64,000 bases of DNA from Verrucomicrobiia bacterium (GTDB lineage: Bacteria > Verrucomicrobiota > Verrucomicrobiia > Verrucomicrobiales > DEV007), in the NCBI GenBank assembly GCA_030425385.1, contig JAUIAH010000007.1:124001-188000 (forward strand). The letters run 5' to 3'. Under the pieces are notes generated by a model that was not told the origin of the DNA, made no database searches, and saw only the letters and a list, made by a program, of their open reading frames with translations. Position 1 is the stretch's first letter. Each line of letters opens with the position of its first letter. Positions 8,056 to 55,663 of this stretch are shown one piece after another. Both the position numbers and the translations under genes were made by a program.

Positions 8056-8075
8056 GGTGGCGGCAAGGTTCCGTT

Positions 8076-9278
8076 TCAATCGCGCTTCCGCGCACGGTCT
8101 AACAAGTCTATCAAGCCGTCGGTAGCCGTGTCTTTCAAGTTGTCGAGTTTCTCTTTGGCTCCGTCGACACCACCTGCGAGCTTTTCGATGAGTGCTGTTT
8201 CGATCGCTTGATAGAGAGCGCGAGCAGCTTCAGAGGCATCGCCTTCAAAGACATCTGGATCCATCTGGAGCCGGAAAGCGATCTCGATGGGTGTCTCCGT
8301 CCTCGCATTGAAATAGGCGGCGACGGCCTTGCGAACCACGCTATCCGGCGGTGCCGTGGCACGAATGCCTGTGAAACGCAGGCGCCAATCGAGATCGACT
8401 TCAAGGGTGTCGGCATGGAGCCATTCGTCGGTCACGTCAATGGACACGCGGCCATCGGCAAAGATGCTGAAGAGGCCTCCTGCGGACGCAAAGGGCAGCA
8501 CGGGCAAGTCCTTTGCTTGCCACCGCGTGCGTTTTCCCTTGGGTGCGCGGTCCTCAACACTCACGACGAGCGGATTGCCGTTGATAGTACCTTGAAGGTT
8601 GGAGCGAAAGAAGAGGTAGAAGAGGCTCCAGCGGCTGCGAAAGCGCTCGGCTTCCAAGTGGTCGATGGTCAGGGAATGCACTGTTGCCGGGGAGCCATCG
8701 GGCAGACGCATGGTCATGGAAGCTTGAGTGACGTGGAGGTCTTCAATGGTCAGGTGCTTCTTGCGACCGCCGTCGCCTTTCCGAGGGAGCTCTAACATGG
8801 TGGCGTCTCCAGAAATGCCTTGAATGGTCAATTGCTGTAAGCGTCTCTCGGAGGAGAAGAGGAGCGACGTGAGAGCGAGGTTCGCCTCGATGTGGTCCAC
8901 GGCGATCTGCCAATGAGGCGATTCGAGACGCAAATCGGCGATGGCCATTCTGCCAGTGAAGAAGTTCCCCCGAATGCCTTGGTGTTGCATGGCGATCCCT
9001 TTCTTGTCCAAATAATGGGCTGCCATGCCACCCACGATGGACCCGAAGAACCCTTGAGCGATCCCTAACAGAAGGACGATCGCGACTCCAGAGATCAGAA
9101 AGAAACGGCCGACGGACTTGATCCAAGCGGGAGGCGGCTTGCGCTCGCCAGGGCGCGATCGGCCTAAGATCGCGGAGAGAAGGGTGAGGAAGGCGTCAAT
9201 GAGCGCGCCTATCAGGCCCACGACTCCCGTGGTGAAGCCCACCGCACACTCAGCAATCAGAGCTACTAAACCCTCCAT
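8076..9278 (-). CDS. membrane-anchored protein of unknown function
   Basis: A 400-residue protein with two N-terminal hydrophobic stretches (residues about 5-40 and 55-85), then a long region predicted to lie outside the cytoplasm with strand-like repeats such as 'IRGNFFTGRMAIADLRLESP' and 'HLTIEDLHVTQASMTM'. This pattern of alternating polar and apolar residues recalls AsmA or TamB-like beta-rich proteins that bridge the periplasm, but I cannot name a family with confidence. The C-terminal 60 residues are helical and charged. It ends directly at the start of the sulfatase gene. Confidence 0.65.
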   Translation of the reverse strand: MEGLVALIAECAVGFTTGVVGLIGALIDAFLTLLSAILGRSRPGERKPPPAWIKSVGRFFLISGVAIVLLLGIAQGFFGSIVGGMAAHYLDKKGIAMQHQGIRGNFFTGRMAIADLRLESPHWQIAVDHIEANLALTSLLFSSERRLQQLTIQGISGDATMLELPRKGDGGRKKHLTIEDLHVTQASMTMRLPDGSPATVHSLTIDHLEAERFRSRWSLFYLFFRSNLQGTINGNPLVVSVEDRAPKGKRTRWQAKDLPVLPFASAGGLFSIFADGRVSIDVTDEWLHADTLEVDLDWRLRFTGIRATAPPDSVVRKAVAAYFNARTETPIEIAFRLQMDPDVFEGDASEAARALYQAIETALIEKLAGGVDGAKEKLDNLKDTATDGLIDLLDRARKRD

Positions 9279-12405: not shown

Positions 12406-15400
12406 TTGAAAGTCGCCTTTTCCCTTATCTTCCTGTTCTTGTGCTCTCAAGCATCTGCTAGGGTGCTCCTGAATGAATTGATGTATCATCCGCGGGCGAT
12501 TGAGGGGCGTGAGCCGGTGGAGCAGGAATACCTCGAGCTGTGGAATATGGGCGAGGCTGTGGTTGATCTGTCGGGGTGGCAGGTAGATCGCGGGGTGCGC
12601 TTTGCCTTTCCTCCCAGCACCATGCTCGCTCCTGGTGGCTACCTGGTCGTGGCCTCTGATCCTGGGGCCCTAGCATTGGAGAATGATGTGAGGGTGCTAG
12701 GGCCGTGGGAAGGTCGCTTGAGCAATGGGGGCGAAACGGTGCGCCTGGTGGATGCGGATGGTGCCGAGGTGGATCGTCTGCGTTATGCGGACGAGGGTGA
12801 TTGGGCTGAGAGGCGTTCCGTGACGGTGGGTGGCCAGTTGGGATGGGCGTGGCAGGCGGGGCATGATGGCGAGGGGTATTCGTTAGAGCGGCGCCATGGT
12901 GCGCTGCCTTCTAGCCATGGGCGAAATTGGGGAGCGAGTCTTGGCGTTGGCGGAACACCTGGTCGAGTCAACGGCATCGCATCGGAAGCTGTGCCGCCCT
13001 TGATTGATGAAGTGCGGCACTATCCCGCTGTGCCGAGTTTTCAAGATCAAGTGACGGTGTGGGCAGACGTGATCTCATTGGGCGAGAGCGTGACCGCGGA
13101 GGTGCGCTATCGCGTTTCCAGGGAAGCGGCGGGAGCGTTTCGTGTGGCTCCCATGACCCGTCTGGCGTCCGGCGTCTACGCCGCGACTCTCCCTCCGCAA
13201 CCTGAGGGAACGGTGGTGGAATTTTATGTCAGGGCGGAGAATCCGATGGGTAGTCGGACGTGGCCCGCGCCGAGCGATGCCATGGGGACTCAGGGTGCCA
13301 ATGCGCTCTATCAAGTTGATGAAGAAACTGTCGCGGGGGATCAGCCTTACTATCGCCTGATCTTGCCGGTGGCGGAGGATCTTCGTTTCCGTCCTGAGCG
13401 CTTTCCTAGTGGAAGCAATGCTAGAATGAATGCGACGCTAATCGTATCGCGCGGCGAGGAGACGACCATTCGTTATCAAGCCGGCCTACGACGGCGTGGG
13501 AATGGCAGTCGCAATCGAAATCCGCGCAGTTTCCGCCTGAGTCTGCCGAGCGATGTCCCGTGGCGCGGGTGGACGGATTTGAATCTCGTGGCGCAGTATA
13601 GCTATCTCCAGGTGTTAGGCATGCATCTCTGTCAGGATGCCTATTTGCCCGCGCCGGATGCTCTCTTCGTGCAGCTGCGGATCAATGGGACGAATTACGC
13701 CAACGATGGGAATCGCCCGCATGTCCACTTCGGTTCCTACGCGCACATCCAACCGCTGAATGGGACCTTTGCGGAGGAGGCTTTCCCAGATGATCCAGAT
13801 GGCGATCTCTACAAGAAGGTGAGTGCCAATCCGCAGCGCGATCGGAAACGATGGGGCGTTCATTTCGAAGATCAGATTGTCTATCAGAACCCCAATTGGT
13901 ATGTGACGGATCGCTGGACCAAGGAAACCAATGGGGCGGCCAATGATTGGGCGCGGTTCCAAGCGTTCATTGTGAGAATGAATGAGGCCCCGATAGAGGG
14001 CTATCACGACTCTGTGGGTGAGGTCATCGATGTCGAGCAGTGGGTGCGCTGGTTTGCCCTCATGGCTCTCATGAACAATCGTGAGACCAACCTGAGCAAT
14101 GGGATCGATGATGATTACTCGATCTATGTGGGGCGCTCTGATCCTAGAGTGACTCTCTTGCCGCATGATCTCGATACGATCTTTGGACGCGGCGACACGA
14201 CCACGCAGCCTGAGGCGACTATCTTCCAGGCGATTGATGCGAGTTTTGGGACTGGGGACGCGCGGGTGCCGCAACTGGAGCGGTTCTTCCAAGACCCTGA
14301 GATTCGACCGCTCTATTTCCAAGCGCTCCATGAATTGATGGCGCATGTGCTCGCTCCCGAGCGATTCGACGTGCTCGTGGATAGCTTGTTAGACCACGTT
14401 TCCGGTGATGAGCGGGATCGGATCAAGCGATTCAATCAGCAACGGCTAGCGCACGTGCGGACGGTGATCGATGCGCCTTTGGAGGTGGTGGAGCCGCCCT
14501 CTGTGGTGGTGACGCCCACGGTGGCTTTGCAAGGAACTCTGAGTCCTCGTCGAGCAGTGACGGTTCACGTCAATGGGCGTGAGGCAATCTTTGATCGGGG
14601 ACAAGGTCGCTGGACGATCAGTGCGCTACCCTTGGCCGTTGGGAGGAACCCGCTCACCATCATTGCACGGGATGTGGCGGGTGCTGAAGTGGACCGCATC
14701 AGGTTGATGATCGATCGCCTGGGAGAGGCCCTGACTACGGTAGGAGGTGTGTTAGAAGAGGAAACCACTTTCACGAAGATACAGAGTCCTATCACTATCG
14801 AAGGCGATCTCGACGTGCCAGTGGGACGCACCTTGCGACTGGAGGAAGGCGTGGTCTTGCGGTTCGACGCAGGGGCACAACTTCGTGTCTCGGGGCGACT
14901 TGAGGTGGTTGGCACCGAAGCCGAGTCCGTGGTGTTGACTGCGGAGCCTGGCGCGGCGTGGAAAGGCATTGCGTTGGTGGATGGGGCTCAGGCTTCGTTG
15001 GCGCACGTGCGTTGGGAATCTTTGGAACCGGATGCCTTCGCGCTACACCTTGAAGATGCCTCCATCGAAGGGCACCATTTGGATTTCAGCGATCATCCAG
15101 GCACGGCGGTGCGTTTGATCCGTTCGTCGGCTAACATAGCGCACAGTCGCTTCCGACAAGAGCGTGGAGCGGTCTCCATTCAGAGCACAGGAGGATTCTT
15201 GTTAGGGAAAGGACTTCATATAAGTGATAGCTTGCTAGGAGCGGTCTTCGTGCGGGGGCGACCGGAGGGGAGGTCGGAGCGCTTGGATCTGGAGAGCAAT
15301 GTCTTTGCCTCCGTGGACACGGCCTTGGAGGTCGAGGGGGCGTTTCGCGTGGTGGACTGCTGGTTCGAGTCGGTGGGAAAGGCAATGTTATTGCATGACG

Positions 15401-18400
15401 CGGAGGTGCTGGCGGCCAATTGCCGCTTTCGCGAGGTGGACCAGGTCTTTGTGAGGGTGGGAAATGCACGCGTGATGTTGGAGCAAAGTGCCGCCGCGTC
15501 TGTGGGACAGGTGTTCGCAGGCAATCCTGAAGGTGTCTGGTCGGTACAAGTGGCCAATTCCATCTTTGCCGACACTTCTCGTCTGGTTCCTGATTTAGTG
15601 GCCGAGGGTAGTTTCATACAATGGACCCACAACTATGTGAGTGCTTTGTTAGAAACGACCGTCCAGGGGAAGCCTGGATTGCGGATCGATAATTCTGTGG
15701 TTGGCACGAACCCCATCTGGGACGAGGAACTGAGGCTGCGGGTGGATGCGCCAGGATGGCGCCAGGGGACCCACGGACAAGCGTTAGGGCCCTTGTCGTT
15801 GGAATCTGGAGTGATCTTCGGGGTGCCTGCTCCAGAGACGAAGCGACGTGATGCGTTTCTGGCAGTGACAGGGAGCGGATGGGAGCAAGCGGAGTATCGC
15901 CTTGATGGAGGGGATTGGGTCTCCTTGACCCTCCCACGGATTCCAGAGGCTGGAACCTTTCGTGAAGCGTTGGTGTTGTTGACAGGGTTGAACCAGGGCG
16001 AGCACGTGTTTGATCTGCGACTTGGTGAGGGAGATGCCATCACGACCGCGCGCTGGTTCGTCAATCCCTTTGCGCCCGAGGTGGCCTTGAATGAGATCGC
16101 AGCCATCAACACGACGCATCCCTTTGGCGAGGCCTTTCCAGATTGGGTCGAATTGCGGAATTTGACCGAACAGGCTGTTTCATTGGAAGGGTACGCTTTG
16201 CGATCGCTGGATAATGAGGAAGAGGATCCGATGCCTCTGGATGACTTCATGATAGGGCCGAATGGCCTGGTGGTGGTACCATTGATGGCCCAGGAGCCGT
16301 CGGGACTGGCATTGGATCGCGATGGGGAAGGGATTGCCCTGATCGATCCTGCGGGAAGGCAAGTGGATGCGATCCGGTTTGGAGCGCAGATTGCAGGGCA
16401 CACCTTAGGTCGTCTGCCGTCGGATCCGGGTTCCTGGGGGCTTTGTGAGCCCTCACCGGAGCAATCCAACCGTCCGGCGGTGCTAGGTTCCGTTCAGGGC
16501 TTGCGATTCAATGAATGGAATGCTGCGAGTGGGTTGGCCTATCGCCAAGACTACATCGAGTTGATCAATGTGGGAGCGTTGCCCATTGCGCTCGATGGTG
16601 TCTGGTTGACAGATGACCCCGCGAGGTTGCCTGACAGATTTGCGTTTCCTTCTCATGCTTTCATTCCTGTTGGTGGGTATGTGGTGGTCGATGAGGACGC
16701 GTTGGGATTCGGGTTGGATGCCTGGTTTGAGCGAGTGGAAATGTTAGGGCACTCGGGGGCAACCGTCGTCGATGTTCTCCGTGGTCAAGCGCAGCCTCCG
16801 GGGATGACCGTGGGGCGGGTCCCTGATGGAGAAGGGGCATGGGGCCCCTTGGAAGTGGGGTCCCCTGGTCGTGCGAACGGCGAGCGTGAGGCCAGCGAGC
16901 GATTGCGCGCCTTGATGGAGCATGTGAGGGTCACGGAGGTGATGTTTCATCCGGTGGAGGGAGGGAGCGAATGGCTTGAAGTCCATCATCGGGGGCAAGA
17001 GCCAATCGCCCTGGAAGGCGTGCGGTTTGGGGAAGGGTTGGAGTTCGTGTTTCCGTCAGTGGTACTGGCACCTGATGAACGGGCCGTTCTCGTTGGCGAC
17101 ATTGCAGCCTTCCAAGCGCAGTATGGTGAGGGTGTGAGGGTGCTAGGCGAGTTTGAAGGGCGACTGGACAACGCGGGCGATCGCCTCACGTGGCAATTGC
17201 CGTTGCCGGAGGATCATCGGTGGTTGGCGTTGGAGTATGCGCCGGAATGGTATCCCGAGGCGCGAGGGCAAGGGAACACGCTGGTTCTCCGAGAAGAAGA
17301 TGTCACTCTAGCGGAGATGTTGGAAATGTGGAGAGTGGGGGATCTCCCTGGAGGCACGCCTGGATTGCCGGAGAAGCCCGTGATCACTTCTGTGCGGGAA
17401 TCAACGACGATCATTCAAGATGATTTCGTCTATCAGTTAGAGGCCACGAATGGTGGTCGTTTCATTGAGGCCGCGCCGCTTCCGCCTGGGCTGAGCTTGG
17501 ACTCCGCCACGGGAAGCATCTCGGGATCGGTCATTATCCCGGGAACTTACGAAGTCACGCTGCGAGCTGGTAATGAGGTGGGGATACATGAGGCGGTGTG
17601 GACGCTGGTGGTAGGGGCGTCCGGTCCCGCAGCGGGTCTTCGATGGGAGAGTTTCCCTGAAAGCGTGACTCAGCTAGAAGACTTTGATCTTGGTGTGTCT
17701 GCGAGGGATGCGGAGGGCCGGTTGGTGCCTGATTTCGACGGTGCGGTGGACGTGCGGGCGGATATTGGAAGGGGAGCGGGTCCAGCCGTGGTGATTTCGG
17801 AGATCCGCGATTGGGGAACGGATGGTCTCACATTGTATAAGGGGGATCCCGAAGTGAACACGGAGGGGTGGCGACTCTTTCTCAACGCCGCTGCTGATCG
17901 CAACGCTGCGGCGATTCATGGGATCCACGGAGTGCCTGGTAGGGTGTTGTCGCTCCCTGACCATTTCACTTATTGGGAGGTGCGTGAGGATGCGTTGGGA
18001 TTCAATCTGCAATGGTCTGACGATGATCCTAGCGAGCGCGTGGGTGGTCAGAAGGGATGGGCGTTATTGGCAAATGCAGAGAACGAGGCGGTGGACTTTG
18101 TTGCGTGGGGGTATGAGGAGTCCATGTTAGAGCGATTGAGTGTTGTCGATGAACAGGGACACCGCATCACCGGATTGGCGTGGGAAGGGGAGGGTGTGCC
18201 GCATCCGGGGCCACTGAGATTCACCTTGGCTCGCCGCGGGGCCTACGATTCGGATCGCGTGATGGACTGGCAATGGATGGATCCAGCTGCAGTGCCTGTG
18301 TTTGAGGGGATGGTTGAGCGGCGCGAAGCTTATGAATTGGGCGAGTTGCTTGTGGAGGCCTTCTTTGAGGGGGGACGGTGGTCACAGGCATTCATTGGGA

Positions 18401-19128
18401 CCACCTTTGGGGCCCGTGTCTACTTGCAGGCAAGGGAGCGGACGCGGGGCTTTGAGACGGAAGAGCGCGTCATGGAGATATTGCCGTTAGCAGCTCCAGA
18501 ATTGCCCTCGACCAGCGCGGTCACGGTGGTACAAGGAAGACCGAGTCCGTTGTTAGGCCTAGATTCGTATCTAGCAGAAGGCTATCGAGTCGGCGACACG
18601 GATGTCGGGGGAGTGGGGTTGGTGTGGGAGAATCATCGCTTAACCCTCACGATAGCCCCATCAGGTACATTCGTCATTCCTGTCATTGCGCACAATGGAT
18701 TAGGGGAGAGTGTGAGTCTTGTTGAGGTCACGAGTCTTGGCGATTCGGATGGTGATGGCATGGATGATGGTTGGGAGCAAACGATGAATCTGAATTCCGA
18801 GGACGCTGGAGACGCTCAAGTGGACATGGATGGAGATGGCGTGGAGAATCTGTCAGAGTATCTCGCGGGAACGGATCCACGGCGAGCTGAGGACTTTCCG
18901 TCACTAGGTGGGTTGGAACTCCTAAGTGGATTGGTGCGTTTGCAATGGCGCGCACCGGCTGGCAATGTCTATACACTGGAGGTGGGCGAGCCAAAGCGGG
19001 GCGGTATGGAGTGGCGCGTGGCCCATGATGGATGGCTCATTGGTTTCGGTGGTGGCGAGGTAAGCTATGCCATTCCAATCGATCCCAGTGCTTCCGACGG
19101 GAGGCTGCTGCGCGTGCGTGTTTGGTAG
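12406..19128 (+). CDS. giant secreted LTD / CotH-kinase / beta-helix protein
   Basis: A 2240-residue protein starting with TTG at 12406 and a signal peptide ('VAFSLIFLFLCSQASA'). Domains in order: lamin-tail domain (about 18-115), CotH-kinase-like domain (about 313-680, with the 'LPHDLDTIFG' motif near 585-594), a right-handed beta-helix-like stretch (about 780-1140), three more lamin-tail domains (starting near 1223, 1365 and 1506, e.g. 'LNEIAAINTTHP'), a putative Ig domain (about 1657-1740), a further LTD-like segment near 1790, and a thrombospondin-3 calcium repeat ('DSDGDGMDDGWEQ', about 2113-2160). CotH is an atypical protein kinase of spore coats; secreted relatives with lamin-tail domains are typical of Verrucomicrobia and Planctomycetes. 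Role unknown, probably surface attachment or modification of secreted proteins. Confidence 0.88.
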   Translation: MKVAFSLIFLFLCSQASARVLLNELMYHPRAIEGREPVEQEYLELWNMGEAVVDLSGWQVDRGVRFAFPPSTMLAPGGYLVVASDPGALALENDVRVLGPWEGRLSNGGETVRLVDADGAEVDRLRYADEGDWAERRSVTVGGQLGWAWQAGHDGEGYSLERRHGALPSSHGRNWGASLGVGGTPGRVNGIASEAVPPLIDEVRHYPAVPSFQDQVTVWADVISLGESVTAEVRYRVSREAAGAFRVAPMTRLASGVYAATLPPQPEGTVVEFYVRAENPMGSRTWPAPSDAMGTQGANALYQVDEETVAGDQPYYRLILPVAEDLRFRPERFPSGSNARMNATLIVSRGEETTIRYQAGLRRRGNGSRNRNPRSFRLSLPSDVPWRGWTDLNLVAQYSYLQVLGMHLCQDAYLPAPDALFVQLRINGTNYANDGNRPHVHFGSYAHIQPLNGTFAEEAFPDDPDGDLYKKVSANPQRDRKRWGVHFEDQIVYQNPNWYVTDRWTKETNGAANDWARFQAFIVRMNEAPIEGYHDSVGEVIDVEQWVRWFALMALMNNRETNLSNGIDDDYSIYVGRSDPRVTLLPHDLDTIFGRGDTTTQPEATIFQAIDASFGTGDARVPQLERFFQDPEIRPLYFQALHELMAHVLAPERFDVLVDSLLDHVSGDERDRIKRFNQQRLAHVRTVIDAPLEVVEPPSVVVTPTVALQGTLSPRRAVTVHVNGREAIFDRGQGRWTISALPLAVGRNPLTIIARDVAGAEVDRIRLMIDRLGEALTTVGGVLEEETTFTKIQSPITIEGDLDVPVGRTLRLEEGVVLRFDAGAQLRVSGRLEVVGTEAESVVLTAEPGAAWKGIALVDGAQASLAHVRWESLEPDAFALHLEDASIEGHHLDFSDHPGTAVRLIRSSANIAHSRFRQERGAVSIQSTGGFLLGKGLHISDSLLGAVFVRGRPEGRSERLDLESNVFASVDTALEVEGAFRVVDCWFESVGKAMLLHDAEVLAANCRFREVDQVFVRVGNARVMLEQSAAASVGQVFAGNPEGVWSVQVANSIFADTSRLVPDLVAEGSFIQWTHNYVSALLETTVQGKPGLRIDNSVVGTNPIWDEELRLRVDAPGWRQGTHGQALGPLSLESGVIFGVPAPETKRRDAFLAVTGSGWEQAEYRLDGGDWVSLTLPRIPEAGTFREALVLLTGLNQGEHVFDLRLGEGDAITTARWFVNPFAPEVALNEIAAINTTHPFGEAFPDWVELRNLTEQAVSLEGYALRSLDNEEEDPMPLDDFMIGPNGLVVVPLMAQEPSGLALDRDGEGIALIDPAGRQVDAIRFGAQIAGHTLGRLPSDPGSWGLCEPSPEQSNRPAVLGSVQGLRFNEWNAASGLAYRQDYIELINVGALPIALDGVWLTDDPARLPDRFAFPSHAFIPVGGYVVVDEDALGFGLDAWFERVEMLGHSGATVVDVLRGQAQPPGMTVGRVPDGEGAWGPLEVGSPGRANGEREASERLRALMEHVRVTEVMFHPVEGGSEWLEVHHRGQEPIALEGVRFGEGLEFVFPSVVLAPDERAVLVGDIAAFQAQYGEGVRVLGEFEGRLDNAGDRLTWQLPLPEDHRWLALEYAPEWYPEARGQGNTLVLREEDVTLAEMLEMWRVGDLPGGTPGLPEKPVITSVRESTTIIQDDFVYQLEATNGGRFIEAAPLPPGLSLDSATGSISGSVIIPGTYEVTLRAGNEVGIHEAVWTLVVGASGPAAGLRWESFPESVTQLEDFDLGVSARDAEGRLVPDFDGAVDVRADIGRGAGPAVVISEIRDWGTDGLTLYKGDPEVNTEGWRLFLNAAADRNAAAIHGIHGVPGRVLSLPDHFTYWEVREDALGFNLQWSDDDPSERVGGQKGWALLANAENEAVDFVAWGYEESMLERLSVVDEQGHRITGLAWEGEGVPHPGPLRFTLARRGAYDSDRVMDWQWMDPAAVPVFEGMVERREAYELGELLVEAFFEGGRWSQAFIGTTFGARVYLQARERTRGFETEERVMEILPLAAPELPSTSAVTVVQGRPSPLLGLDSYLAEGYRVGDTDVGGVGLVWENHRLTLTIAPSGTFVIPVIAHNGLGESVSLVEVTSLGDSDGDGMDDGWEQTMNLNSEDAGDAQVDMDGDGVENLSEYLAGTDPRRAEDFPSLGGLELLSGLVRLQWRAPAGNVYTLEVGEPKRGGMEWRVAHDGWLIGFGGGEVSYAIPIDPSASDGRLLRVRVW

Positions 19129-23633: not shown

Positions 23634-24095
23634 ATGGGACTCATGAATGTGCCAGAATCTCCATGGTTGCGAGCGGCGGTGCTCGGGTTTGTCGTTGTCG
23701 TCGTGTTCCCGTTGGCATGGTGCAGCGTGCTGTGGCTGGTGGCACGCGTGTCAGGCTGGGGGCGCTTGGCCCGATCCTATGAATCGAATCGTCGCTTTGA
23801 GGGGCCCTGCAAGCGCTGGCAGTCTGCATGGTTCGGTTGGGTGGCCTACAATCGCTTATTGACCCTGACAAACACACCGCGAGGGCTTGGAATCACGATC
23901 TTCCCTCTGTTTAGCGCGGCGCATCCAGCACTCCTCGTTCCCTGGAAAGAGGTGCAGTTGATCGAAGTCAGGACCCACTGGGGGCGCGAGTATGCGACCT
24001 ATCGGCTTGGGGATCGCAGTGCCGTCCGCTTCACCGTGAGGGCGGGAATCGTGGAGTCGCCGTCGACGTCCTCCAACCTACTCGAATCCGACTAA
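23634..24095 (+). CDS. single-pass membrane protein, unknown function
   Basis: A 153-residue protein with one strong hydrophobic segment near the N terminus ('AAVLGFVVVVVFPLAWCSVL') and a soluble C-terminal part with 'GLGITIFPLFSAAHPALLVPW' followed by 'KEVQLIEV', which resembles the PH-like folds that follow a membrane helix in many small bacterial proteins. No family recognised. Starts eight bases after the DUF4112 gene; its last 18 bases overlap the end of the convergent glycosyltransferase gene. Confidence 0.7.
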   Translation: MGLMNVPESPWLRAAVLGFVVVVVFPLAWCSVLWLVARVSGWGRLARSYESNRRFEGPCKRWQSAWFGWVAYNRLLTLTNTPRGLGITIFPLFSAAHPALLVPWKEVQLIEVRTHWGREYATYRLGDRSAVRFTVRAGIVESPSTSSNLLESD

Positions 24096-25595
24096 CCAAG
24101 CCACGAAGAGGACAAGGATGGCGAAGGAGAAGAGAATCTCAAGCTTGGGCACTAGCCAGACGAAGAAACTTTCCTCGTTCCCGTCTTTCTCGCCTTTCTT
24201 CTTGCGGTGCGCGTCCCAGCTCTGGCGGTGCAAATGGAAGAGTCCGTGGATCTTGACCAAGCTTCCAACCCACTGCGTGTAGAGGAGTAGTGGGAGATCG
24301 GTGAAAGACATGCGATGCCCTTCCGTGGTGAGCAGGATGAGGTAGAGTACCCTCACCACGATCACAATGATCGCGTAGAGCAGGAGATAGTAAGGGCTGA
24401 TGAAGATCGCGGCCCAGACGGCGGTGACGGGTCCGAGAAGGCCAGTCCACATCGAGATGCGCTGATCGACAATGCACCACCAGACAAAGGGTTTCTGGGC
24501 GCCAATACCGAGTCGGATGGCGCGGCCATTGTTTCTTAACATGTTTCCAAACCAACGCTGCATCTTCAACAGAGACTGTTTGAAGGGGCGTGGTCCCGAG
24601 TCCTCCATGCAGTAGATGTGAGCATCCGCCACATAGAGCATTTCCCAACCTTCCTTGAGGAGACAATACCAGGTGCTCTTATCGTCCCCCGTGAGAAACT
24701 TGATCTCTCCGTGGAGCCAGTGTGAAATCCGATCGTTCTCCACATGCGCGATGAAGTCATCGGTAAGCACCCAATGGGCGCGAAAGGCGGAGAATCGTCC
24801 GGTAAGAACGAGGAGTTGTTTCGAAAGACTGTGAGACTTCATCATGCGGTGCCGCATGGCGAAGCGGAGCGTGTACCACTTGCGGTAGAGTGAGGCGCCC
24901 GAAGTTACCGCAATGTTATCAGTGGTCACAGCACCGAGCCGAGGATTGGTGGCGAAGAAAGGCAGGCTTTTCTCCAAGATACCCTTTCCAAGGACAGTAT
25001 CTCCATCCATGAGCACAATGATATCATCTTCATTCACTTGGTAGTCGCTATTGCGCAGGGCATAGAGCGCATCCGCCATGCCGCGTCGTTTCCCTCCGAC
25101 TTGCCGCACGAACATGAGCTCGATCTCGGAGTGTGGATCTTCAGCAATGACCTGGCGAAAGAGATCGTCTTCCTCGTCACTGCCGGCATTCACCACCACG
25201 ACCACTTTCGAGCTGATGGTGCGTGCCTCGCTCATCACGGATTGCAGCATGCGCCGAGAGACTTCGGGCTTCTCCTGAAAGGTCGGGATGACGATGAAGA
25301 GGTGCTCGGGGAATTTCTCTTCATTCGGAAGGCGGCGACTTTCGAACGCGAGTTGGCCGTATTTGAAGTGCTCGAAGATCATGGCCCTCACATAGTGCGT
25401 GAGTAGCCAGAGATAACGCCAGAGGCCGATGAGGCCGAGGGCGGCGAAGTTCCCCAAACTTTGGTCCATGGCATCCCACGGAATAAACAGGGCGATGGCC
25501 ACCGCAATGGCCAAGTAGGTGATAATGACAGGGGCAGATCGGATCAATCGGCCGATGAACCCGATGTCGTATCGGATACTCGTGACGTCGCTCAT
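24078..25595 (-). CDS. Alg8-like membrane glycosyltransferase (GT2)
   Basis: A 505-residue processive glycosyltransferase. Two membrane helices (about 18-60), a GT2 domain (about 95-345) with 'FIVIPTFQEKPE', the UDP-sugar DxD in 'VLMDGDTVLG', the acceptor-site 'TGDDKSTW' and the QxxRW-type 'MQRWFGN', then three or four C-terminal helices. The combination 'FLTGDDKSTW' plus 'RWFGNMLR' is what I associate with Alg8, the alginate polymerase. The upstream gene encodes an Alg44-like protein, the known partner of Alg8, which supports a role in making and moving an exopolysaccharide across the inner membrane. Which sugar is used cannot be told; no alginate-modifying genes are present. Confidence 0.85.
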   Translation of the reverse strand: MSDVTSIRYDIGFIGRLIRSAPVIITYLAIAVAIALFIPWDAMDQSLGNFAALGLIGLWRYLWLLTHYVRAMIFEHFKYGQLAFESRRLPNEEKFPEHLFIVIPTFQEKPEVSRRMLQSVMSEARTISSKVVVVVNAGSDEEDDLFRQVIAEDPHSEIELMFVRQVGGKRRGMADALYALRNSDYQVNEDDIIVLMDGDTVLGKGILEKSLPFFATNPRLGAVTTDNIAVTSGASLYRKWYTLRFAMRHRMMKSHSLSKQLLVLTGRFSAFRAHWVLTDDFIAHVENDRISHWLHGEIKFLTGDDKSTWYCLLKEGWEMLYVADAHIYCMEDSGPRPFKQSLLKMQRWFGNMLRNNGRAIRLGIGAQKPFVWWCIVDQRISMWTGLLGPVTAVWAAIFISPYYLLLYAIIVIVVRVLYLILLTTEGHRMSFTDLPLLLYTQWVGSLVKIHGLFHLHRQSWDAHRKKKGEKDGNEESFFVWLVPKLEILFSFAILVLFVAWLVGFE

Positions 25596-25619
25596 GGGTG
25601 AGAAAGGGCAGCGGTCCGA

Positions 25620-27269
25620 TCAAGCGCTCGGCTGGGTTTGCACGGTCGCGGATTCGGATTCATGGGGAAGGGCTTTGGACGCTTCATTATCCTCCCAAGG
25701 CCAACGATGGTCCAGTTGGATTGTCATGCCAATGCGGAGGCCTGCAGGGATGTCGTAGGGAATGTCAGGGAGCGTGACTTTGATCGGCACCAGAGTGGGA
25801 TCCGCTCGGAAATCGGGATTCCAGCCGCTCTGGCTATAGACACCCCGGTGGCCGATGGCAGCCACCTTGCCTGTGGCAGAGACGCCCATGGACTTGAGGT
25901 GAATGCGTACGTTCTGGCCAGGGAGCACTTTCAACGCCATCTTCTGTGTCACGTGCCCCACGGCCCAGTTCTCTTGTTGAGTGGCGAGGGCGAGCACTTC
26001 CCCTCCTACTTTCACAAAGCTGCCAGCCTTGAGGTAGGAAGCATAGACGGAGCCTGGAGAAGACGCGTGAACAGTGAAGTGTCTCCGCTGTTCTTCCAAA
26101 TGCGTTCGTTGGGCGTGCAACTCAGCGAGCTGAGCTTCTGCTGAAGCTAGGCGAGATTGTGCCTGAGCTAGGGACTGGTCTAACCGATCACCCACCATGA
26201 GAAGATTGGATTCCTTGAGGAGACGTTCGCGCTCGCGCAAGCGATCCACTTCGGCCGCGTGCATCTCGGCAGTGGCCATGGCGGTTTGATGTGCCATCAC
26301 GGCCTCTTCGTATTTGCTCATCACGATCACCTGCCGTTCTGCTAGAGGGCGGAGGCGAGCGGCGATGGCTTCTGTCCGTTGGACATCGACTTTGGCTGCG
26401 TTGGCAGCAGCTCGAACGACGGCGAGGTCGTTCTTCAGATTCGACGCAGTGACCGTGAACTGCTGTTTCGCGGCAGCCACTTCTTGGCTAGCATTGTCTC
26501 TTTCGACCTCCGCGGCGCGGATAGCGGCGTCGATTTGGACAAAGGCATTCTCCACTTTCTGATCCACGATGCGGAAGAGCGGATCACCAGGCGAGACGTG
26601 TTCGCCGTCCCGCACGAATACTTTCTCAAGAATGCCTTCAGAGCTAGCCTTCACGGGGACAAAGTTGCCTAACAAGACTGCGTTGTGCACGGGGATGGAG
26701 AGTTGGCTCTTGAAGAAATAGAAGACCGTGGCTGCTATGGCGAGGATTCCGAAGAGCAGCACACCGATGGCGATCACACCCTTCCGTTTCCCTGGTCCCG
26801 CGTCAGTCCGCGCGGGGGCTGACGCAGGTGCCGCCGCCTTCGTGGAGGGTTTGGCACCGTTTCCGTTCACGCGGCTGCCATTGGCAAAGCCGTTCGTGGT
26901 CGCGGGCGGCGCGGCGACTGTTGTGCGAGAACCGGCACCCATGGCGATTTGATCGTAGCTCAGATCGTTGAGGGCGTCATTCGCTTGCCCCTGGTATTGG
27001 TTGATCATGGACTTGAGCTGGGCCTGCTGCTTGAGAGTGAGATCGTAGAAGTAGCAGTGCGTCCGTCCGTCGGCGTTTGATCGGACACGGATGCGAATGG
27101 GGAGCGAGCCCTGATCGGGAAATTCGAGGACACCATCATGAACGGATCCTTGGTCGGCGACGGTGCCGGGGACGAAGAATCCGTGAAGACTCAGGTTGGA
27201 AGTGGGTCGCGATTGGTCACCCGTCCAGAAGCGGGGCGTGTGCGTCGTGGTGAGAGTTGATTGGCTCAT
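25620..27269 (-). CDS. Alg44-like PilZ / HlyD membrane-fusion protein
   Basis: A 549-residue protein. The N-terminal ~100 residues look like a PilZ domain: 'NLSLHGFFV' fits the [DN]xSxxG motif and 'YDLTLKQQAQLKSMI' the family's last helix, but a clear RxxxR motif is missing (Arg13 and Arg21 lie nearby). A proline/alanine-rich linker, a membrane helix ('IAIGVLLFGILAIAATVFYF', about 166-187) and a HlyD-type part follow: lipoyl-like halves around a long coiled coil (about 230-400). Alg44 has this same order and turns on Alg8 when cyclic-di-GMP binds PilZ. It lies 24 bases upstream of the glycosyltransferase and is divergent from a TolC-like gene, its probable outer membrane partner. Confidence 0.85.
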   Translation of the reverse strand: MSQSTLTTTHTPRFWTGDQSRPTSNLSLHGFFVPGTVADQGSVHDGVLEFPDQGSLPIRIRVRSNADGRTHCYFYDLTLKQQAQLKSMINQYQGQANDALNDLSYDQIAMGAGSRTTVAAPPATTNGFANGSRVNGNGAKPSTKAAAPASAPARTDAGPGKRKGVIAIGVLLFGILAIAATVFYFFKSQLSIPVHNAVLLGNFVPVKASSEGILEKVFVRDGEHVSPGDPLFRIVDQKVENAFVQIDAAIRAAEVERDNASQEVAAAKQQFTVTASNLKNDLAVVRAAANAAKVDVQRTEAIAARLRPLAERQVIVMSKYEEAVMAHQTAMATAEMHAAEVDRLRERERLLKESNLLMVGDRLDQSLAQAQSRLASAEAQLAELHAQRTHLEEQRRHFTVHASSPGSVYASYLKAGSFVKVGGEVLALATQQENWAVGHVTQKMALKVLPGQNVRIHLKSMGVSATGKVAAIGHRGVYSQSGWNPDFRADPTLVPIKVTLPDIPYDIPAGLRIGMTIQLDHRWPWEDNEASKALPHESESATVQTQPSA

Positions 27270-27413
27270 ATTTGAGAATCTAGCAGCAATGATAATTAAT
27301 GAATGTCAGCGACGAGAAACATATCCATCATTATTCCTAAAATATCCAGAATGCATTTGACCAATTATAAGAAAGATAGCAAGTGTGAGAATCAATAGGA
27401 AGATTAACAAAGA
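27270..27413. promoter_or_regulatory. divergent AT-rich control region
   Basis: This 144-bp region separates the Alg44-like gene and the TolC-like gene and is much richer in A and T than its surroundings, as expected for two back-to-back promoters. A 'TTGACC' at about 27357 could be a -35 element for the rightward gene, but no matching -10 is clear. Shared control of both sides is likely. Confidence 0.5.
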
Positions 27414-29012
27414 ATGAGATTTCAGATCAGCTCTCTTTCCCTCCCATGCCTACTCGGACTGTGTGTTGTTGGTGTCGGATGCTCGCGCGTTCACGTTTCG
27501 CCCAGTCCCAGGCCGGAGTTCATTCCCCGAAAGCCCGACCCTTCCATGGTGCCGCCGGAGACGCCGTCGGCGACGTTGAGTGCGGCGCCTTCTCAGCCTG
27601 CTTCGCCGCCGGCGATCGAATCAGTGACACCCAGTGTGTTCTCGGAAGTCGCTGCGGTACGCTATGCTCAACTGCACAGCCCTTCGATCTATCGCAGCCA
27701 GGCGAGTTCGGAGCGTGCCTTGGCGGAAAGGGATTCAATGAAAGCGGAGTTGAGGCCCTATGTCTCCGTCGAGGCAGAAGCGGGGCGTGCCGATAGGCTA
27801 TCGTCCAATCGTCAGGATGATCCCGCTGACGCCGGTATCGGTGTCTTTCTTCGGCATCGCCTGTTTGATGGAAAGGCGGGATGGTTTCGTTATCTCGCCT
27901 CCGTCAATCAAAGCCGCGCGGCTGCCTATGAGCGGGAGGCCGAACAGAACCGGGTTGCTGCGGAGATTCGGCTCGGCTTCGCCCGGATGCGTCACTGGTA
28001 CCGGGTCGCCACCGCCCAGCGGGATGAGGTGAAGGAAATGGATGCTTTGTCAGAGAAGCTTGCCCTTCTTGCAGCCTATGGCGTCAGCACGGCGGAGAAG
28101 GTCGAACGCCTCAGCGCCCAACGGGACAACCTGAAAGTGGGTGCCGAAGAAGCCCTGTCAAAGTTGCAGGAGGAGCGGCGGCGCATTCTTGAACTAATGG
28201 GAGCGCCTGGAGGCACGCGGCTGAGTTTGGGGAGATCTAACATTCAGGCATCGACTACAGATCCCATGCTGCTAGCGGGTCAGGCATTGCAACAGCGCGC
28301 TGAGTTGAAAGCAGCCGCCTACGCCGTAGAAGCGAAGCGCGCCTCAGCCGAATCCGTACGGCGAGATCGTTACCCGCGGGCAGACTTGGTCTTAGGCTTG
28401 GCGACGGAAGGGCGATTGGATGAGAGCATCCGGCGCACTTGGGAAACGGCGGGCCGCATTGGTATCCGTGCGGAGTGGTCGCCCTTTGACTTTGGTCGGA
28501 ATCAAGCAAAGCAACGTGAGGAAATGGCTAGTCTCCGTGAAGCCGAAGCTGACTACGCTCAGTTGAAGAAGACCGTGCAACACGATATTGTGAATGCGAT
28601 CGAAAGCACCAAGCTTGCCTACAACCAGGTGCAAGCAGCCACCTCTGAGATGGTATCAGCACGGAAAGCGTTAGGGCTCGCTCTGGAAGCTTTCCGCAAT
28701 GATGCGGGCGATATAGAAACCGTTATCCGCGCGCATCGGACCGTGCGCCAATCGCGCCTCTCAGAATCGACGGCTCGGTATCGTGCGGAGGAAGGAAACG
28801 TCCTCTTGGCGTTCAGTCAGGGGCAAGCCGCCCATGTTCCTGGAGCGATCGATTCAGTCCAGCTCAGTGCCACGGAACTGCCCGCAATCTCCTCTGGAGC
28901 CTTGAGTACCTATCGCCCGGCACCTGTGGCGACGCAGCCGATTCTCCCGCAGCAATCGCCTCCCAAAGCCCCCGAAGCAGCTCTCTTCATGCCCATCGTT
29001 CTCCTGCCGTGA
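27414..29012 (+). CDS. TolC-like outer membrane efflux protein
   Basis: A 532-residue outer membrane factor. A signal peptide ending 'CVVGVGCSR' has a lipobox-like cysteine, although the -3 residue is not ideal. A proline-rich linker (about 30-70) leads to two repeats of long helices and short strands typical of TolC: 'FRYLASVNQSRAAAYEREAE' and 'NAIESTKLAYNQVQAATSEM' mark the helical barrel. The end is proline-rich. It is divergent from the Alg44/Alg8-like pair and probably supplies the outer membrane exit for their product, replacing the AlgE/AlgK route used for alginate. Confidence 0.85.
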   Translation: MRFQISSLSLPCLLGLCVVGVGCSRVHVSPSPRPEFIPRKPDPSMVPPETPSATLSAAPSQPASPPAIESVTPSVFSEVAAVRYAQLHSPSIYRSQASSERALAERDSMKAELRPYVSVEAEAGRADRLSSNRQDDPADAGIGVFLRHRLFDGKAGWFRYLASVNQSRAAAYEREAEQNRVAAEIRLGFARMRHWYRVATAQRDEVKEMDALSEKLALLAAYGVSTAEKVERLSAQRDNLKVGAEEALSKLQEERRRILELMGAPGGTRLSLGRSNIQASTTDPMLLAGQALQQRAELKAAAYAVEAKRASAESVRRDRYPRADLVLGLATEGRLDESIRRTWETAGRIGIRAEWSPFDFGRNQAKQREEMASLREAEADYAQLKKTVQHDIVNAIESTKLAYNQVQAATSEMVSARKALGLALEAFRNDAGDIETVIRAHRTVRQSRLSESTARYRAEEGNVLLAFSQGQAAHVPGAIDSVQLSATELPAISSGALSTYRPAPVATQPILPQQSPPKAPEAALFMPIVLLP

Positions 29013-41238: not shown

Positions 41239-44200
41239 ATGAGTGATGGTCAGGGTTCACAAGAAGGTCCAAACATGGAAGACGTGAGTGACCGTATCGT
41301 GCGTCGTCTCTTTGCGCCCGTGACGGAAACGTATCAACCGTTGCCGACGACCGATGAGCTGGAAGAACTTTTCCCGCGTTGGGAAGGCGTGGGGGTGGCG
41401 ACACGCACGGAGCACCTTCTCGTCCAGCGGTTGCGGCGGCGTGATGATGGGCAGTTGGGGCGGCTCGTCTTCGCCACGGGGAAGATGATGAAAGAGCCTT
41501 GGCGGGACTTGGAGGAAACGCACCCTAACATCGTGCAGATTCTGGAATCTGCCTGCACCGAGGATTATCATTATCATATCTTCGAAGACTTTTCGGGGGC
41601 GACCTTGGCAGAGGCGATTGAGACCGGGCAGCTGACCCAGGACGCTCTCGCAAACAAGGTGATCCCCCTGATACGCGAGGCCGTGAACTACGCGCGCACC
41701 AAAGGCTTACCGCTGGACACGCGGACGACGGCGATCGGCTACAATCAAGAGGGGAAGATCACCCTGGCGCCTTTCGGAGAACAGCCATCCATCGGGGAAG
41801 GGGCGAGCTTAGATGACATGGTTCTGGGTGGCGATCAGCCCTTGGTCGGGAGTTGGATTGGGCCCTATCGGCTGCTGGAAATGATCGGTGAAGGTGGCTT
41901 CGCGGAGGTCTATCGGGCGGAGCAGCAGACGCCGGTGGTGCGGCACGTGGCGATCAAAGTGCTGAAGGCGGGCATGGAATCTGAGGATATCGTGGCCCGC
42001 TTCGCCGCAGAGAGGCAGGCCCTTGCGCGCATGGATCATCCTGGCATTGCGCAAATCTTTGATGGCGGCCAAACGAGTGGCGGGCGGCCGTATTTCGTCA
42101 TGGAACTGGTGGAAGGGCTGCCGCTTTCAATGTTTTGTCAGGATCATGCGTTGAAGCTGGAGCAGCGGTTGCGGCTCTTCTGCGATGTGTGTCAGGCAGT
42201 GGAGCATGCGCACGGCAAGGGCGTCATTCACCGGGATCTGAAGCCTTCCAATATTCTCGTCGCTAACAAGCCTAGCGATACCGGATCTTTCGCCGTCAAA
42301 GTGATCGATTTCGGGATCGCCAAAGCGATGGGGGGCTCGAAACTGACGGAGAAGACGCTGCATACCAAGCACTATCAATTTCTCGGATCGCTGAGCTACA
42401 TCAGTCCTGAGCAGATAGCTTCCCGAGGCGATGTGGATGCGCGCTCAGATGTCTATGCGCTCGGATGCATTCTGTATGAAATGCTGGCGGGAACCACGCC
42501 GATGACGTCAAAGTTCATTGCCGATACCTCTCACTACGCAGCGGCTGACGCGATCATGCACACGGATTTCGATCCACCCTCGGTCCGAAACCCGCATGCG
42601 CATGTGCCCCTGGCATTGGATTCCGTGACCATGATGGCGCTGGAGAAGGAGCCGGAGCGCCGGTATGAATCAGCGCAAGCGTTAGGCGAAGATGTGCGCC
42701 GTTTCCTCGAGCACATCCCCGTACTGGCCACGGCGCCGACCCTTTGGGACAAGGTGTGCAAACTGGCTATCCGTCACAAAGTTGCTGCCAGCATGTCTGC
42801 TGTCGCCGTGGTTAGCCTGCTTACGGCGACGGCATTGAGTGTCTGGGGTTGGTTGCGAGCGGAAGCCGCTGAGGGAGAAGCGGAACAGCATCTCTATAAC
42901 ACGCGAATCAAACAGTGTCAGGACGCGTTGGAGAACGGCGAGATGCGCCAATTCTGGGAAACGATGGCGTTGTATGCGGGGGAAGCGGGAGAGAGATTTC
43001 GTGGTTGGGAGTGGGATTGGTTAGCCACTCAGGGCAATGCAGCCCACCGCATCATTCAGGCGCACGAAACTGGTGTGGAAGCCCTGGCCATGAACCCCAA
43101 CGGAGCGACCTTTGCCACGGCTGGTACTGATGGGTGGGTGGCCGTTTGGGAGGTGGCCTCGGGTGAGTGCGCGGTCCGACTCCGCTGCCACGTGGGCGCA
43201 GCATTGTGTCTTTGTTGGAGTCATGATGGCACCTTCCTGGTGACGGGTGGTGCCGACCACTCGGTGACGGTTTGGGACACCGCTGGCTGGGAGAAGGTGG
43301 CGCGTCTGGCGCATCATGTGTCGCCGGTAGAGGCCGTGGCGTGGCATCCAGGGGAGACACGCTTTGCATCCAGCTCCCTTTCGGGAACGGTGGCTCTTTG
43401 GGGAATGAGTGAGGGCGAATGGCGCCGTGAGGGAGGGTGTGCCGTGCCAGCGACCGTCCGAGACCTCGCGTGGATCGGTGATGGGTCATTGGCGATTGCT
43501 CGAGGGGGAGGGAGATCTGAGATCTATCATTGGAACATCGGTACTGGGAAGGTCACTTGCCCGTATCGAAAGGAGCGGATCTGTGATGTGACCGTGGCCT
43601 GGCATCCCGAGAGGCGCCTCATGGCACACAGTTATACCAATCAACGGATCTGTCTGCTTCCGCTGACGGAGGGCGGCGAGGGTTACCTCGAAGATGTCTA
43701 CCGTGAACCTGCGCATAAGCAGACCATTCGGCAGTTGGCCTGGCAACCTGGGGCAGGAGCGTTACTCGCTTCGGTAGGGGACGATTGGGTCCTCCGCGTG
43801 TGGGACCTCTTCAACGATGAAGGGAAGGATCCTTTGCGAGCCATGCTGCCCGGGCACCGCGGGTCGGTGACGGGCGTGGCGTGGACGCGTGATGGCGAGG
43901 AACTGGTGACCTGCAGCCGCGATGGCACCGTTCGGTTCTGGTATCCTAAGAAGCATTTGGTAGAACTGAAGTCGCCCATCTACGAGGGTAAAGAAATCTC
44001 GGGTGCAGCCATGGATTGGATGAATGATGGTGAGCACCTGGCGGTCACGTATTATGATCGTGGGTTGATTGGCCTCTGGCATCATTCCTGGGAACGCGAT
44101 CCCAAATTGATACGTGGTGACTATATACAAAGCATGACTGCCTGGCGTCCTGGAGATGATGATCAGTTTGTGGTAAAGTCTCCTGAAGGTCATATTATCC

Positions 44201-45771
44201 TCGGCTCCGCGACGGAGGAGGCTAAAGTTGTCACGAAGGACGGCTACACCACTGGCAAGTGGAATCGACAAGGAACGCACCTCGCGTTATTGGAGAATGT
44301 CTCTCGATATGTGGATGTTTGGAACATGGACACCATGGAGGCAACAGGTCGGCTTGAGATTGAAGATCCCTCTGAAAACCATGTGCTCGCCATGGGGTGG
44401 CATCCCAATGGGCGCGAACTGACACTTGCAGAGCACTGCGGGGAGGTGAGCCATTGGCGTCTCACCAATGAAGGCGCGAAACGGCGTTGGCGTATGCAAG
44501 TGGGAGAAGGATCGGCGACTGCGGTGGCTTGGAGTCATGATGGAGAGATCATGGCTGTGGGAGATCGGTTTGGGTGGGTTTCATTCTTTGATTCTAAAAC
44601 ACGTGCTCTGCTAGCGCGGCTGCATTTGCATTCGGCGGCCGTGACAACACTTTCCTGGAGTCCTGCAGAGCCTCGCATGGCATCGACGAGTGAAGATCGA
44701 TTGATCAAACTGGTGAACACCGTGACCTTTGATCTCGTTCTGACTTATGATCTCATGTCACGACATCGCTTGGGGAGGATGGCATGGAACAAGCAGGGGA
44801 CACGGTTGGCAGCGTTTAACGGAGAGAAAGTTGCTATCTTTGATTCCCGGTACGACGTGGAGCCGCTGACTGCTGGCGATGGGGTGCCGGTGATCGATGG
44901 AGTCTCCGAAGATGAGGTGCTGCTAGAGGGAGGACTGGCGCTTTGGTTAGGAAAGGGAAATGCCAAACATCCCGGAATCATGCGATTTGCGAGTGATCCC
45001 ATTGATCTCTCGAATGGGTACAGTGCCGCGACGCAGATGCTCGCGCGGGTGGTCGCGAGAAGACCGGTAGATCCCAATGATAGTGGTCATCTGCTCGCAT
45101 CATTGGGTGTCTCAGGGTCTCTCATGCCCTTGCAGTTCCTTCAGCGCTACTGGGAGTTTGACCCGCTGCCTTTAGAGCAATGGGATTCCGAGCGTTTTGC
45201 CATGCTCTCATTGCCGGTACGAACGGATGAGGAAGCGGATAGCCATCTCAAGGATTTCCCATTGGGAAGGCATGCCTTCGGAGGCATTCCCTTCCAAGTG
45301 GATGGGTTTGTGAGGCTGGCGAGTGTCGCCACGGCTAATGCAGGCTATGATTTCCCAGTATCCGTGTCTCTTGAGGAGCCAGTGAGAGGGAGCGCACTGC
45401 ATTTCTTACAAGCGACCGCTTATGAACCCCGGTCAGGTGAACGTTTGGAGGTCGGAACACATGTCATCGAATACGCCGATGGCACCATCCATCGTGAACC
45501 GGTGCGTTATGCGGAGCATGTTGCCAATGCCTATGTGCTGTCAGATCACGTCCTGCCGGGTCGCATGAAGGGAGCCACGACCGTGTGGGCGGCGAGACAT
45601 CGCTACCCAATCGAGCGTAATAAAGGTTATGTCATGGCTTTCTTTCACATGGCTGTGGCAAATCCTTACCCTGACAACGTCATCGAACGGATCGTGTTGG
45701 AGTCTGCTCAGAATCATCCCTCTCTTATTGTGGCGGGCGTCACCGTAGAACGCAAAGAAGGCACCCCGTGA
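41239..45771 (+). CDS. Ser/Thr protein kinase with WD40 propeller
   Basis: A 1510-residue membrane protein. Residues about 90-190 look like a decayed kinase C-lobe ('HPNIVQILES', then 'APFGE' where DFG would be). An intact Hanks-type kinase follows (about 207-500): glycine loop 'GEGGFAEVY', 'VAIK', 'HRDLKPSN' (about 331-338) and 'DFGIA' (about 357). A single membrane helix lies at about 517-540. Outside are WD40 repeats (about 600-1250, e.g. 'SHDGTFLVTGGADHSVTVWD') and a C-terminal beta domain (about 1315-1510) with 'FGGIPFQVDGFVRLAS' and 'YADGTIHREPVRY'. Such receptor kinases are abundant in Verrucomicrobia and Planctomycetes; the propeller probably senses a ligand. Target unknown. Confidence 0.9.
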   Translation: MSDGQGSQEGPNMEDVSDRIVRRLFAPVTETYQPLPTTDELEELFPRWEGVGVATRTEHLLVQRLRRRDDGQLGRLVFATGKMMKEPWRDLEETHPNIVQILESACTEDYHYHIFEDFSGATLAEAIETGQLTQDALANKVIPLIREAVNYARTKGLPLDTRTTAIGYNQEGKITLAPFGEQPSIGEGASLDDMVLGGDQPLVGSWIGPYRLLEMIGEGGFAEVYRAEQQTPVVRHVAIKVLKAGMESEDIVARFAAERQALARMDHPGIAQIFDGGQTSGGRPYFVMELVEGLPLSMFCQDHALKLEQRLRLFCDVCQAVEHAHGKGVIHRDLKPSNILVANKPSDTGSFAVKVIDFGIAKAMGGSKLTEKTLHTKHYQFLGSLSYISPEQIASRGDVDARSDVYALGCILYEMLAGTTPMTSKFIADTSHYAAADAIMHTDFDPPSVRNPHAHVPLALDSVTMMALEKEPERRYESAQALGEDVRRFLEHIPVLATAPTLWDKVCKLAIRHKVAASMSAVAVVSLLTATALSVWGWLRAEAAEGEAEQHLYNTRIKQCQDALENGEMRQFWETMALYAGEAGERFRGWEWDWLATQGNAAHRIIQAHETGVEALAMNPNGATFATAGTDGWVAVWEVASGECAVRLRCHVGAALCLCWSHDGTFLVTGGADHSVTVWDTAGWEKVARLAHHVSPVEAVAWHPGETRFASSSLSGTVALWGMSEGEWRREGGCAVPATVRDLAWIGDGSLAIARGGGRSEIYHWNIGTGKVTCPYRKERICDVTVAWHPERRLMAHSYTNQRICLLPLTEGGEGYLEDVYREPAHKQTIRQLAWQPGAGALLASVGDDWVLRVWDLFNDEGKDPLRAMLPGHRGSVTGVAWTRDGEELVTCSRDGTVRFWYPKKHLVELKSPIYEGKEISGAAMDWMNDGEHLAVTYYDRGLIGLWHHSWERDPKLIRGDYIQSMTAWRPGDDDQFVVKSPEGHIILGSATEEAKVVTKDGYTTGKWNRQGTHLALLENVSRYVDVWNMDTMEATGRLEIEDPSENHVLAMGWHPNGRELTLAEHCGEVSHWRLTNEGAKRRWRMQVGEGSATAVAWSHDGEIMAVGDRFGWVSFFDSKTRALLARLHLHSAAVTTLSWSPAEPRMASTSEDRLIKLVNTVTFDLVLTYDLMSRHRLGRMAWNKQGTRLAAFNGEKVAIFDSRYDVEPLTAGDGVPVIDGVSEDEVLLEGGLALWLGKGNAKHPGIMRFASDPIDLSNGYSAATQMLARVVARRPVDPNDSGHLLASLGVSGSLMPLQFLQRYWEFDPLPLEQWDSERFAMLSLPVRTDEEADSHLKDFPLGRHAFGGIPFQVDGFVRLASVATANAGYDFPVSVSLEEPVRGSALHFLQATAYEPRSGERLEVGTHVIEYADGTIHREPVRYAEHVANAYVLSDHVLPGRMKGATTVWAARHRYPIERNKGYVMAFFHMAVANPYPDNVIERIVLESAQNHPSLIVAGVTVERKEGTP

Positions 45772-55653: not shown

Positions 55654-55663
55654 GCATAGACCG

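Follow-up and report, generated by a model that had tools for sequence, protein, structure and literature searches.

Alg8-type synthase, Alg44-like adaptor and TolC-type duct genes form a conserved module in Verrucomicrobiota and Planctomycetota

The window analyzed here, 64,000 nucleotides from a Verrucomicrobiia bacterium (assembly GCA_030425385.1, contig JAUIAH010000007.1, positions 124,001 to 188,000), carries a conserved three-gene module at positions 24078-29012. An Alg8-family glycosyltransferase family 2 (GT2) processive polysaccharide synthase (24078..25595, minus strand, 505 aa) is the 3'-most gene of a two-gene unit with an Alg44-like adaptor (25620..27269, minus strand, 549 aa) composed of a degenerate PilZ domain, one transmembrane (TM) helix and a HlyD/EmrA-type periplasmic part. 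Divergent from this pair is a TolC/OEP-family outer membrane duct (27414..29012, plus strand, 532 aa), a putative lipoprotein with two PF02321 repeats (E 2.5e-25). We consider it likely, at a probability of roughly 70%, that the three genes encode a synthase-exporter that uses the TolC duct in place of AlgK/AlgE and that is probably independent of cyclic di-GMP in the source genome (8.0 Mb, 74 contigs, 95.5% complete). All three open reading frames of a first-pass annotation of the window were present, and its pairing of an Alg8-like synthase with an Alg44-like adaptor, with TolC divergent, was borne out by Pfam, an Alg8 profile and AlphaFold modeling.

Pfam identified the synthase as Glyco_tranf_2_3 (E 1.9e-36) without a PilZ domain, and its best annotated matches were Alg8 proteins from complete alginate operons, at 31-38% identity; these references come from annotated or inferred alginate operons and do not include P. 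aeruginosa Alg8. An Alg8 profile built without the window's subclade gave the window protein 558 bits and E. coli PgaC 27, and left E. coli BcsA undetected with a score below 0, ruling out the BcsA and PgaC sequence families. On sequence grounds the synthase thus belongs to the Alg8 family; its likeness to hyaluronan synthase is one of fold only. A DGD metal/nucleotide motif of the DxD type (residues 197-199; 24999..25007, minus strand), G303, D304, D305, K306 and S307 in and after the TGDD catalytic-base motif (residues 302-305; 24681..24692, minus strand) and the RW motif (R347, W348) are invariant in a 12-sequence alignment. The AlphaFold model, for which plasmid-derived alignment rows were left out, has a mean predicted local distance difference test score (pLDDT) of 87 and has hyaluronan synthases as its closest structural matches (Z 29, 2.7 A over 382 residues), with cellulose and chitin synthases next, a common fold that says nothing about substrate. 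Phmmer and profile searches of the PDB with the synthase found a single match, an archaeal GT2. A tblastn search against plasmids returned 14 records, all alphaproteobacterial; four annotated ones carry a nucleotide sugar dehydrogenase, the synthase match, a hypothetical protein, a sugar phosphate nucleotidyltransferase and a beta-helix protein, with an MBOAT protein in two, and from gene order and product names we infer the arrangement AlgD-8-44-A-G-I.

Scanning a genome collection of 84,980 species and applying per-gene profiles yielded 80 loci (L numbers denote loci and G numbers genomes of this survey, G000 being the source genome). An OEP gene adjoins the synthase/adaptor pair in L022 (Rubripirellula obstinata), L023 and L024 of the Planctomycetota and in L026 and L014 of the Verrucomicrobiota, lies ~2 kb from the pair in L025 (Spartobacteria LR76), and lies beyond an AlgD gene in L015 (G027). 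Pfam confirmed the OEP in every scanned one of these linked loci, and in the other loci a more sensitive OEP profile gave no match within flanks of up to 8 kb. L029, from a Verrucomicrobiia bin of the same family as the source genome, is at the same place as G018 and shares its genome with L014. Sampling 296 genomes from the order of Rubripirellula added three close relatives (60-61% identity), all three with an OEP gene divergent from adaptor and synthase. Of the 12 genomes in the Alg8 subclade, which spans the two phyla, 10 therefore have a linked OEP gene, adjoining or within 2 kb, as does L015 outside it, and in most linked subclade genomes nothing lies between the OEP gene and the pair. 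The first-pass annotation had called for a survey of the three-gene layout and held that a TolC gene unlinked in relatives would speak against a joint system; linkage instead recurs in two phyla.

With ~20-22 OEP genes in 8 Mb, the chance that an OEP gene starts within 1.5 kb of any one position is ~0.8%, and because the linkage also recurs in ten other genomes, the neighborhood is not attributable to chance. A quick synthase tree with Shimodaira-Hasegawa-like approximate likelihood ratio support only placed the window sister to Planctomycetota (100), then to L025/L017 (98), then to L026/L014/L027 (88), with L015 outside the subclade at a position that is not firm. The synthase is rare, occurring in 3 of 388 genomes of the phylum at E 1e-30 (source genome included) and, in the Planctomycetota order, in 8 of the 296 genomes sampled at E 1e-40. 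For so uncommon a gene, a tree position next to a different phylum suggests transfer, without proving it. As a separate observation, L016 (G013) encodes at 7965-8546 a C-terminal Alg8-type synthase fragment, 59% identical to the window protein over 189 residues; no intact gene is present there, and the fragment is a truncated or assembly-broken gene.

The linked ducts do not form one clade. When placed among the OEPs of the source genome, those of Planctomycetota grouped with L025 (80/57), the window's grouped with L015 (100/96) and that of L026 stood apart; a tree forcing all linked OEPs together was rejected (approximately unbiased test, p 0.0075), ruling out a single common orthologous OEP across loci, and long branches weaken the exact placements. 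TolC-type ducts were therefore probably recruited or exchanged beside an Alg8-type synthase more than once. These results bear on the alternative that the OEP serves another pump, for efflux or type I secretion, while the Alg8/Alg44 pair exports through an unlinked porin. The presence of ~20 OEP genes in the source genome, and the lack of orthology between the window OEP and the OEPs linked to the nearest relatives of its synthase, would fit this account, which we nevertheless regard as improbable: linkage is kept in most of the subclade, mostly without an intervening gene, and OEPs of different lineages are found in the same position. Such repeated pairing favors coupling of synthase and OEP and is hard to explain by chance neighbors.

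The periplasmic part of the adaptor (Pfam HlyD_D23, E 2.9e-12) best matches EmrA (Z 17.4), and also MacA, in structure comparison, and contains a modeled alpha-helical hairpin at residues 237-396 (26082..26561, minus strand; helices 237-311, 317-354 and 366-396). The two lipoyl halves are separated by 168 residues, compared with ~12 in the Alg44 proteins that complete alginate operons encode. A single alignment of all adaptors resolved classes with ~167 intervening residues (many adaptors), 92-94 (Halomonadaceae and one relative) and ~12 (Alg44 of rhizobial and roseobacterial AlgD-8-44-A-G operons); the L091 adaptor has 36, and its locus encodes an AlgK-AlgE-like fusion (Sel1 repeats plus Alginate_exp, E 8.5e-45). 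Adaptor tips bind TolC through the RLS motif RxxxLxxxxxxS, in which the serine tolerates change (PMC3391258). An RLS-like motif, R305-x3-L309-x6-V316 (26322..26357, minus strand), lies at the hairpin tip, with R and L at motif spacing; the model places the turn of the tip at 312-316. A HlyD part without a docking tip had been named as evidence against the proposed exporter; sequence and model instead point to a full-length hairpin with a putative TolC-docking tip whose motif is partly conserved. Across the survey, 11 of 42 long-hairpin adaptors have a linked OEP and none of the 46 others do (Fisher test, kinship ignored).

Long hairpins were also seen in cyanobacteria, where Alg8-type synthases of L054, L056, L065 and L072 adjoin adaptors that lack PilZ and have hairpins of 190-202 residues ending in RLS-like tips. 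No linked OEP was found at these four loci in the flanks examined (up to 8 kb). A 2015 survey reported no PilZ-HlyD Alg44 in cyanobacteria (PMC4594306).

The adaptor model (mean pLDDT 82) consists of an N-terminal beta-barrel (10-100), a helix (162-189) and then the periplasmic part. The barrel is a degenerate PilZ domain (residues 9-100; 26970..27245, minus strand; pLDDT ~95 over 11-90) that matches 4rt1/4rt0 and keeps NLSLHG, and model secondary structure and hydrophobic sequence predict a single TM helix at 162-189 (26703..26786, minus strand). Comparison with the P. aeruginosa Alg44 PilZ domain gave Z 12.0 and 2.0 A over 87 residues at 23% identity; other PilZ entries gave similar Z values, but MrkH and YcgR are only 14-15% identical. 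In the model, then, the protein has the N-terminal PilZ fold, one TM helix and the periplasmic fusion domain of Alg44. This anatomy makes it very improbable that adaptor and OEP are merely an efflux pair beside an unrelated or glycolipid-making GT2, an account suggested by the EmrA-like periplasmic part: besides the Alg44-type PilZ fold, the synthase and adaptor genes adjoin in nearly all Alg8-family loci, and the unit contains no MFS, RND or ABC transporter gene, the synthase occupying that place.

PilZ domains bind cyclic di-GMP via RxxxR and DxSxxG (PMC8461298). RxxxR is absent before the PilZ domain of the window adaptor, and none occurs at that place in six Planctomycetota relatives. A misassigned start hiding an upstream motif was ruled out, as an in-frame stop lies just upstream of the adaptor ATG. 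Pfam found no GGDEF match in the source genome, and 8 of 14 control genomes gave matches; a Pfam PilZ search of the genome also found none, but it misses the adaptor's own degenerate domain, so this second null is weak evidence. The adaptor PilZ has therefore probably lost cyclic di-GMP binding, and together with the lack of detectable GGDEF proteins this argues that the system in the source genome runs without cyclic di-GMP control. A cytoplasmic linker motif between PilZ and TM helix, SYDxLAxG (26940-26978; adaptor residues ~98-110), is conserved in L022, L023, L024 and L168-L170 and is possibly a contact to the synthase.

Several observations weigh against export through the linked TolC duct. 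The RLS serine is replaced by V316 in the window adaptor, and the second and third places of the motif vary among other clade members. Adaptors with long hairpins are also found at loci that have no linked OEP, and L017 and L027 lie within the subclade without a linked OEP. In L025 (6633-7931) and L017 (9732-11087) the protein paired with the synthase has a PilZ-TM-coiled-coil layout and lacks a recognizable barrel-sandwich domain; its mechanism must differ from that of the window adaptor. Finally, Planctomycetota and G027 encode full, unlinked Alginate_exp porins.

The context of these Alginate_exp genes bears on that last point. The source genome has partial matches only, the stronger of which adjoins a nitrate-type ABC transporter, and G018, G435 and G358 have none. 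At three of five places examined (G651, G708 and the source genome), sequence resemblance put the Alginate_exp site in a nitrate-type ABC transporter cluster, and no alginate context was seen around the genes in G434 and G027. An unlinked AlgE as the exit is thus disfavored, Alginate_exp genes having never been seen in an alg context at these five places, which also counts against the OEP belonging to a different pump; the proteins examined do not look like alginate exporters. The Pfam Alginate_exp proteins of L195, L196 and L199 adjoin nitrate-type ABC transporter genes, and the label "alginate exporter" would mislead there.

Taken as a synthase-exporter, the module would work as follows. Using a nucleotide sugar as donor, the Alg8-type synthase would build a beta-linked polymer, most likely of a uronate, and extrude the growing chain through a membrane channel of its own. 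The degenerate PilZ domain and TM helix of the Alg44-like adaptor would hold the synthase, the adaptor would form a periplasmic ring, and its long hairpins would dock tip-to-tip onto the adjacent TolC-type trimer to give a closed path out of the cell. This TolC-coupled machine would replace AlgK/AlgE and, in the source genome, would probably operate without cyclic di-GMP. Alg8 family membership, hairpin and linkage thus support the direct three-part synthase-exporter of the first-pass annotation, in which export through TolC is a predicted step.

Some PL14 enzymes act on glucuronate polymers. A PL14 lyase gene lies directly 3' of the synthase in four Planctomycetota (L022:9503-10270, L023:6677-8485, L168:7226-8539 and L169:9615-10427), in L023 joined to a beta-helix region, which suggests that the polymer is a polyuronate. 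PL14 is one of the CAZy families holding alginate lyases, and its members include polyM lyases (PMC8286568). The canonical alginate features are missing from the window locus, where AlgE and AlgK and the other proteins looked for (AlgX, AlgG, AlgI, AlgL and AlgA) were not found; the claim that the system lacks alginate genes therefore holds for the locus and fails for the genome, which has an AlgD homologue and two PL14 lyases elsewhere. The same machine may thus make polymannuronate, with GDP-mannuronate supplied by an unlinked AlgD, and be an alginate system with a new exit. Full-length AlgD homologues occur in G000, G018, G013 and G027, and at L015 genes for AlgD and a mannose-1-P guanylyltransferase are linked to those for the synthase, the adaptor and TolC. 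Against this, the AlgD homologue of the source genome (G000:C20:68451, 43-46% identical to alginate-operon AlgD) sits in a separate glycan cluster, and several carriers of the module have only distant dehydrogenase matches (28-31% in G651, a complete single-contig genome, and in G708, G699, G432 and G433; 35% in G434) or none at E 1e-30 (G358 and G436). Since these carriers lack AlgD, it is unlikely that all systems use GDP-mannuronate as donor; UDP-glucuronate is another candidate, and we view the polymannuronate account as possible though doubtful.

Elsewhere at the locus, the 144-bp divergent intergenic region between adaptor and OEP genes (27270..27413) contains one sigma-70-like site on the minus strand (27391-27364; 10 of 12 consensus bases), and promoter-like sites in this region and the locus were not more numerous than in shuffled sequence. 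The window also encodes, all on the plus strand, a 1510-aa protein in which a protein kinase domain precedes many WD40 repeats (41239-45771), a 2240-aa protein that combines lamin-tail domains with a CotH kinase domain (12406-19128), and a 1501-aa protein carrying one reprolysin-like metallopeptidase and one Calx-beta domain (55622-60127).

Compared with known systems, the module shares with Pseudomonas Alg8-Alg44-AlgK/AlgE (PMC8461298, PMC9734138) an Alg8-family synthase, the Alg44 PilZ fold, a single TM helix, a periplasmic fusion domain and adjacent genes, whereas it has lost RxxxR, has the 168-residue hairpin and a linked TolC-type duct, and has its AlgD elsewhere. EmrAB-TolC, MacAB-TolC and HlyBD-TolC share the adaptor hairpin architecture and OEP duct, with an MFS, ABC or RND transporter where the window unit has a polymer synthase. 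As described in PMC9495663, the rhizobial mixed-linkage beta-glucan system BgsBA combines a GT2 synthase of CESA_CelA type, with its own cyclic di-GMP site, and a HlyD-like partner thought to form a channel, with no outer membrane duct assigned there. Closest in principle is the XcsAB-TolC model of cyanobacterial cellulose export (Maeda 2018, reviewed in PMC12430437), in which synthase, HlyD-like adaptor and TolC are the proposed tripartite path; XcsA, a cellulose synthase of BcsA type, contains PilZ, whereas the window synthase is Alg8-type without PilZ and the three genes are linked. According to the 2025 review the XcsAB-TolC genes are not in one operon and validation is missing (PMC12430437). 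Searches of the open-access literature, a scope that leaves out most subscription journals, turned up no account of an Alg8-Alg44-TolC unit. The arrangement that the first-pass annotation considered new is therefore not new in principle, a synthase-HlyD-TolC path having been proposed in 2018, and what is new is its Alg8-based, gene-linked form.

Crossing of the outer membrane by synthase-made polysaccharides is known for AlgE-, BcsC- and PgaA-type porins; the TolC route that our literature search turned up is the one put forward for cyanobacterial cellulose, and a gene trio linked in distant bacteria provides the linkage that the XcsAB-TolC model lacked. As a tentative extension, Verrucomicrobiota and Planctomycetota may hold a cyclic di-GMP-independent Alg8 class in which a hairpin Alg44 plugs into exchangeable TolC ducts and exports a non-alginate polyuronate such as glucuronan, and long-hairpin Alg44 proteins elsewhere, in cyanobacteria and marine proteobacteria, might likewise use unlinked TolC. 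The split of Alg44 proteins into hairpin-less and hairpin-bearing classes offers a simple sequence predictor of exit type. Since linkage occurs in two phyla and different TolC lineages accompany one synthase type, the TolC route is directly testable, including in named Planctomycetota.

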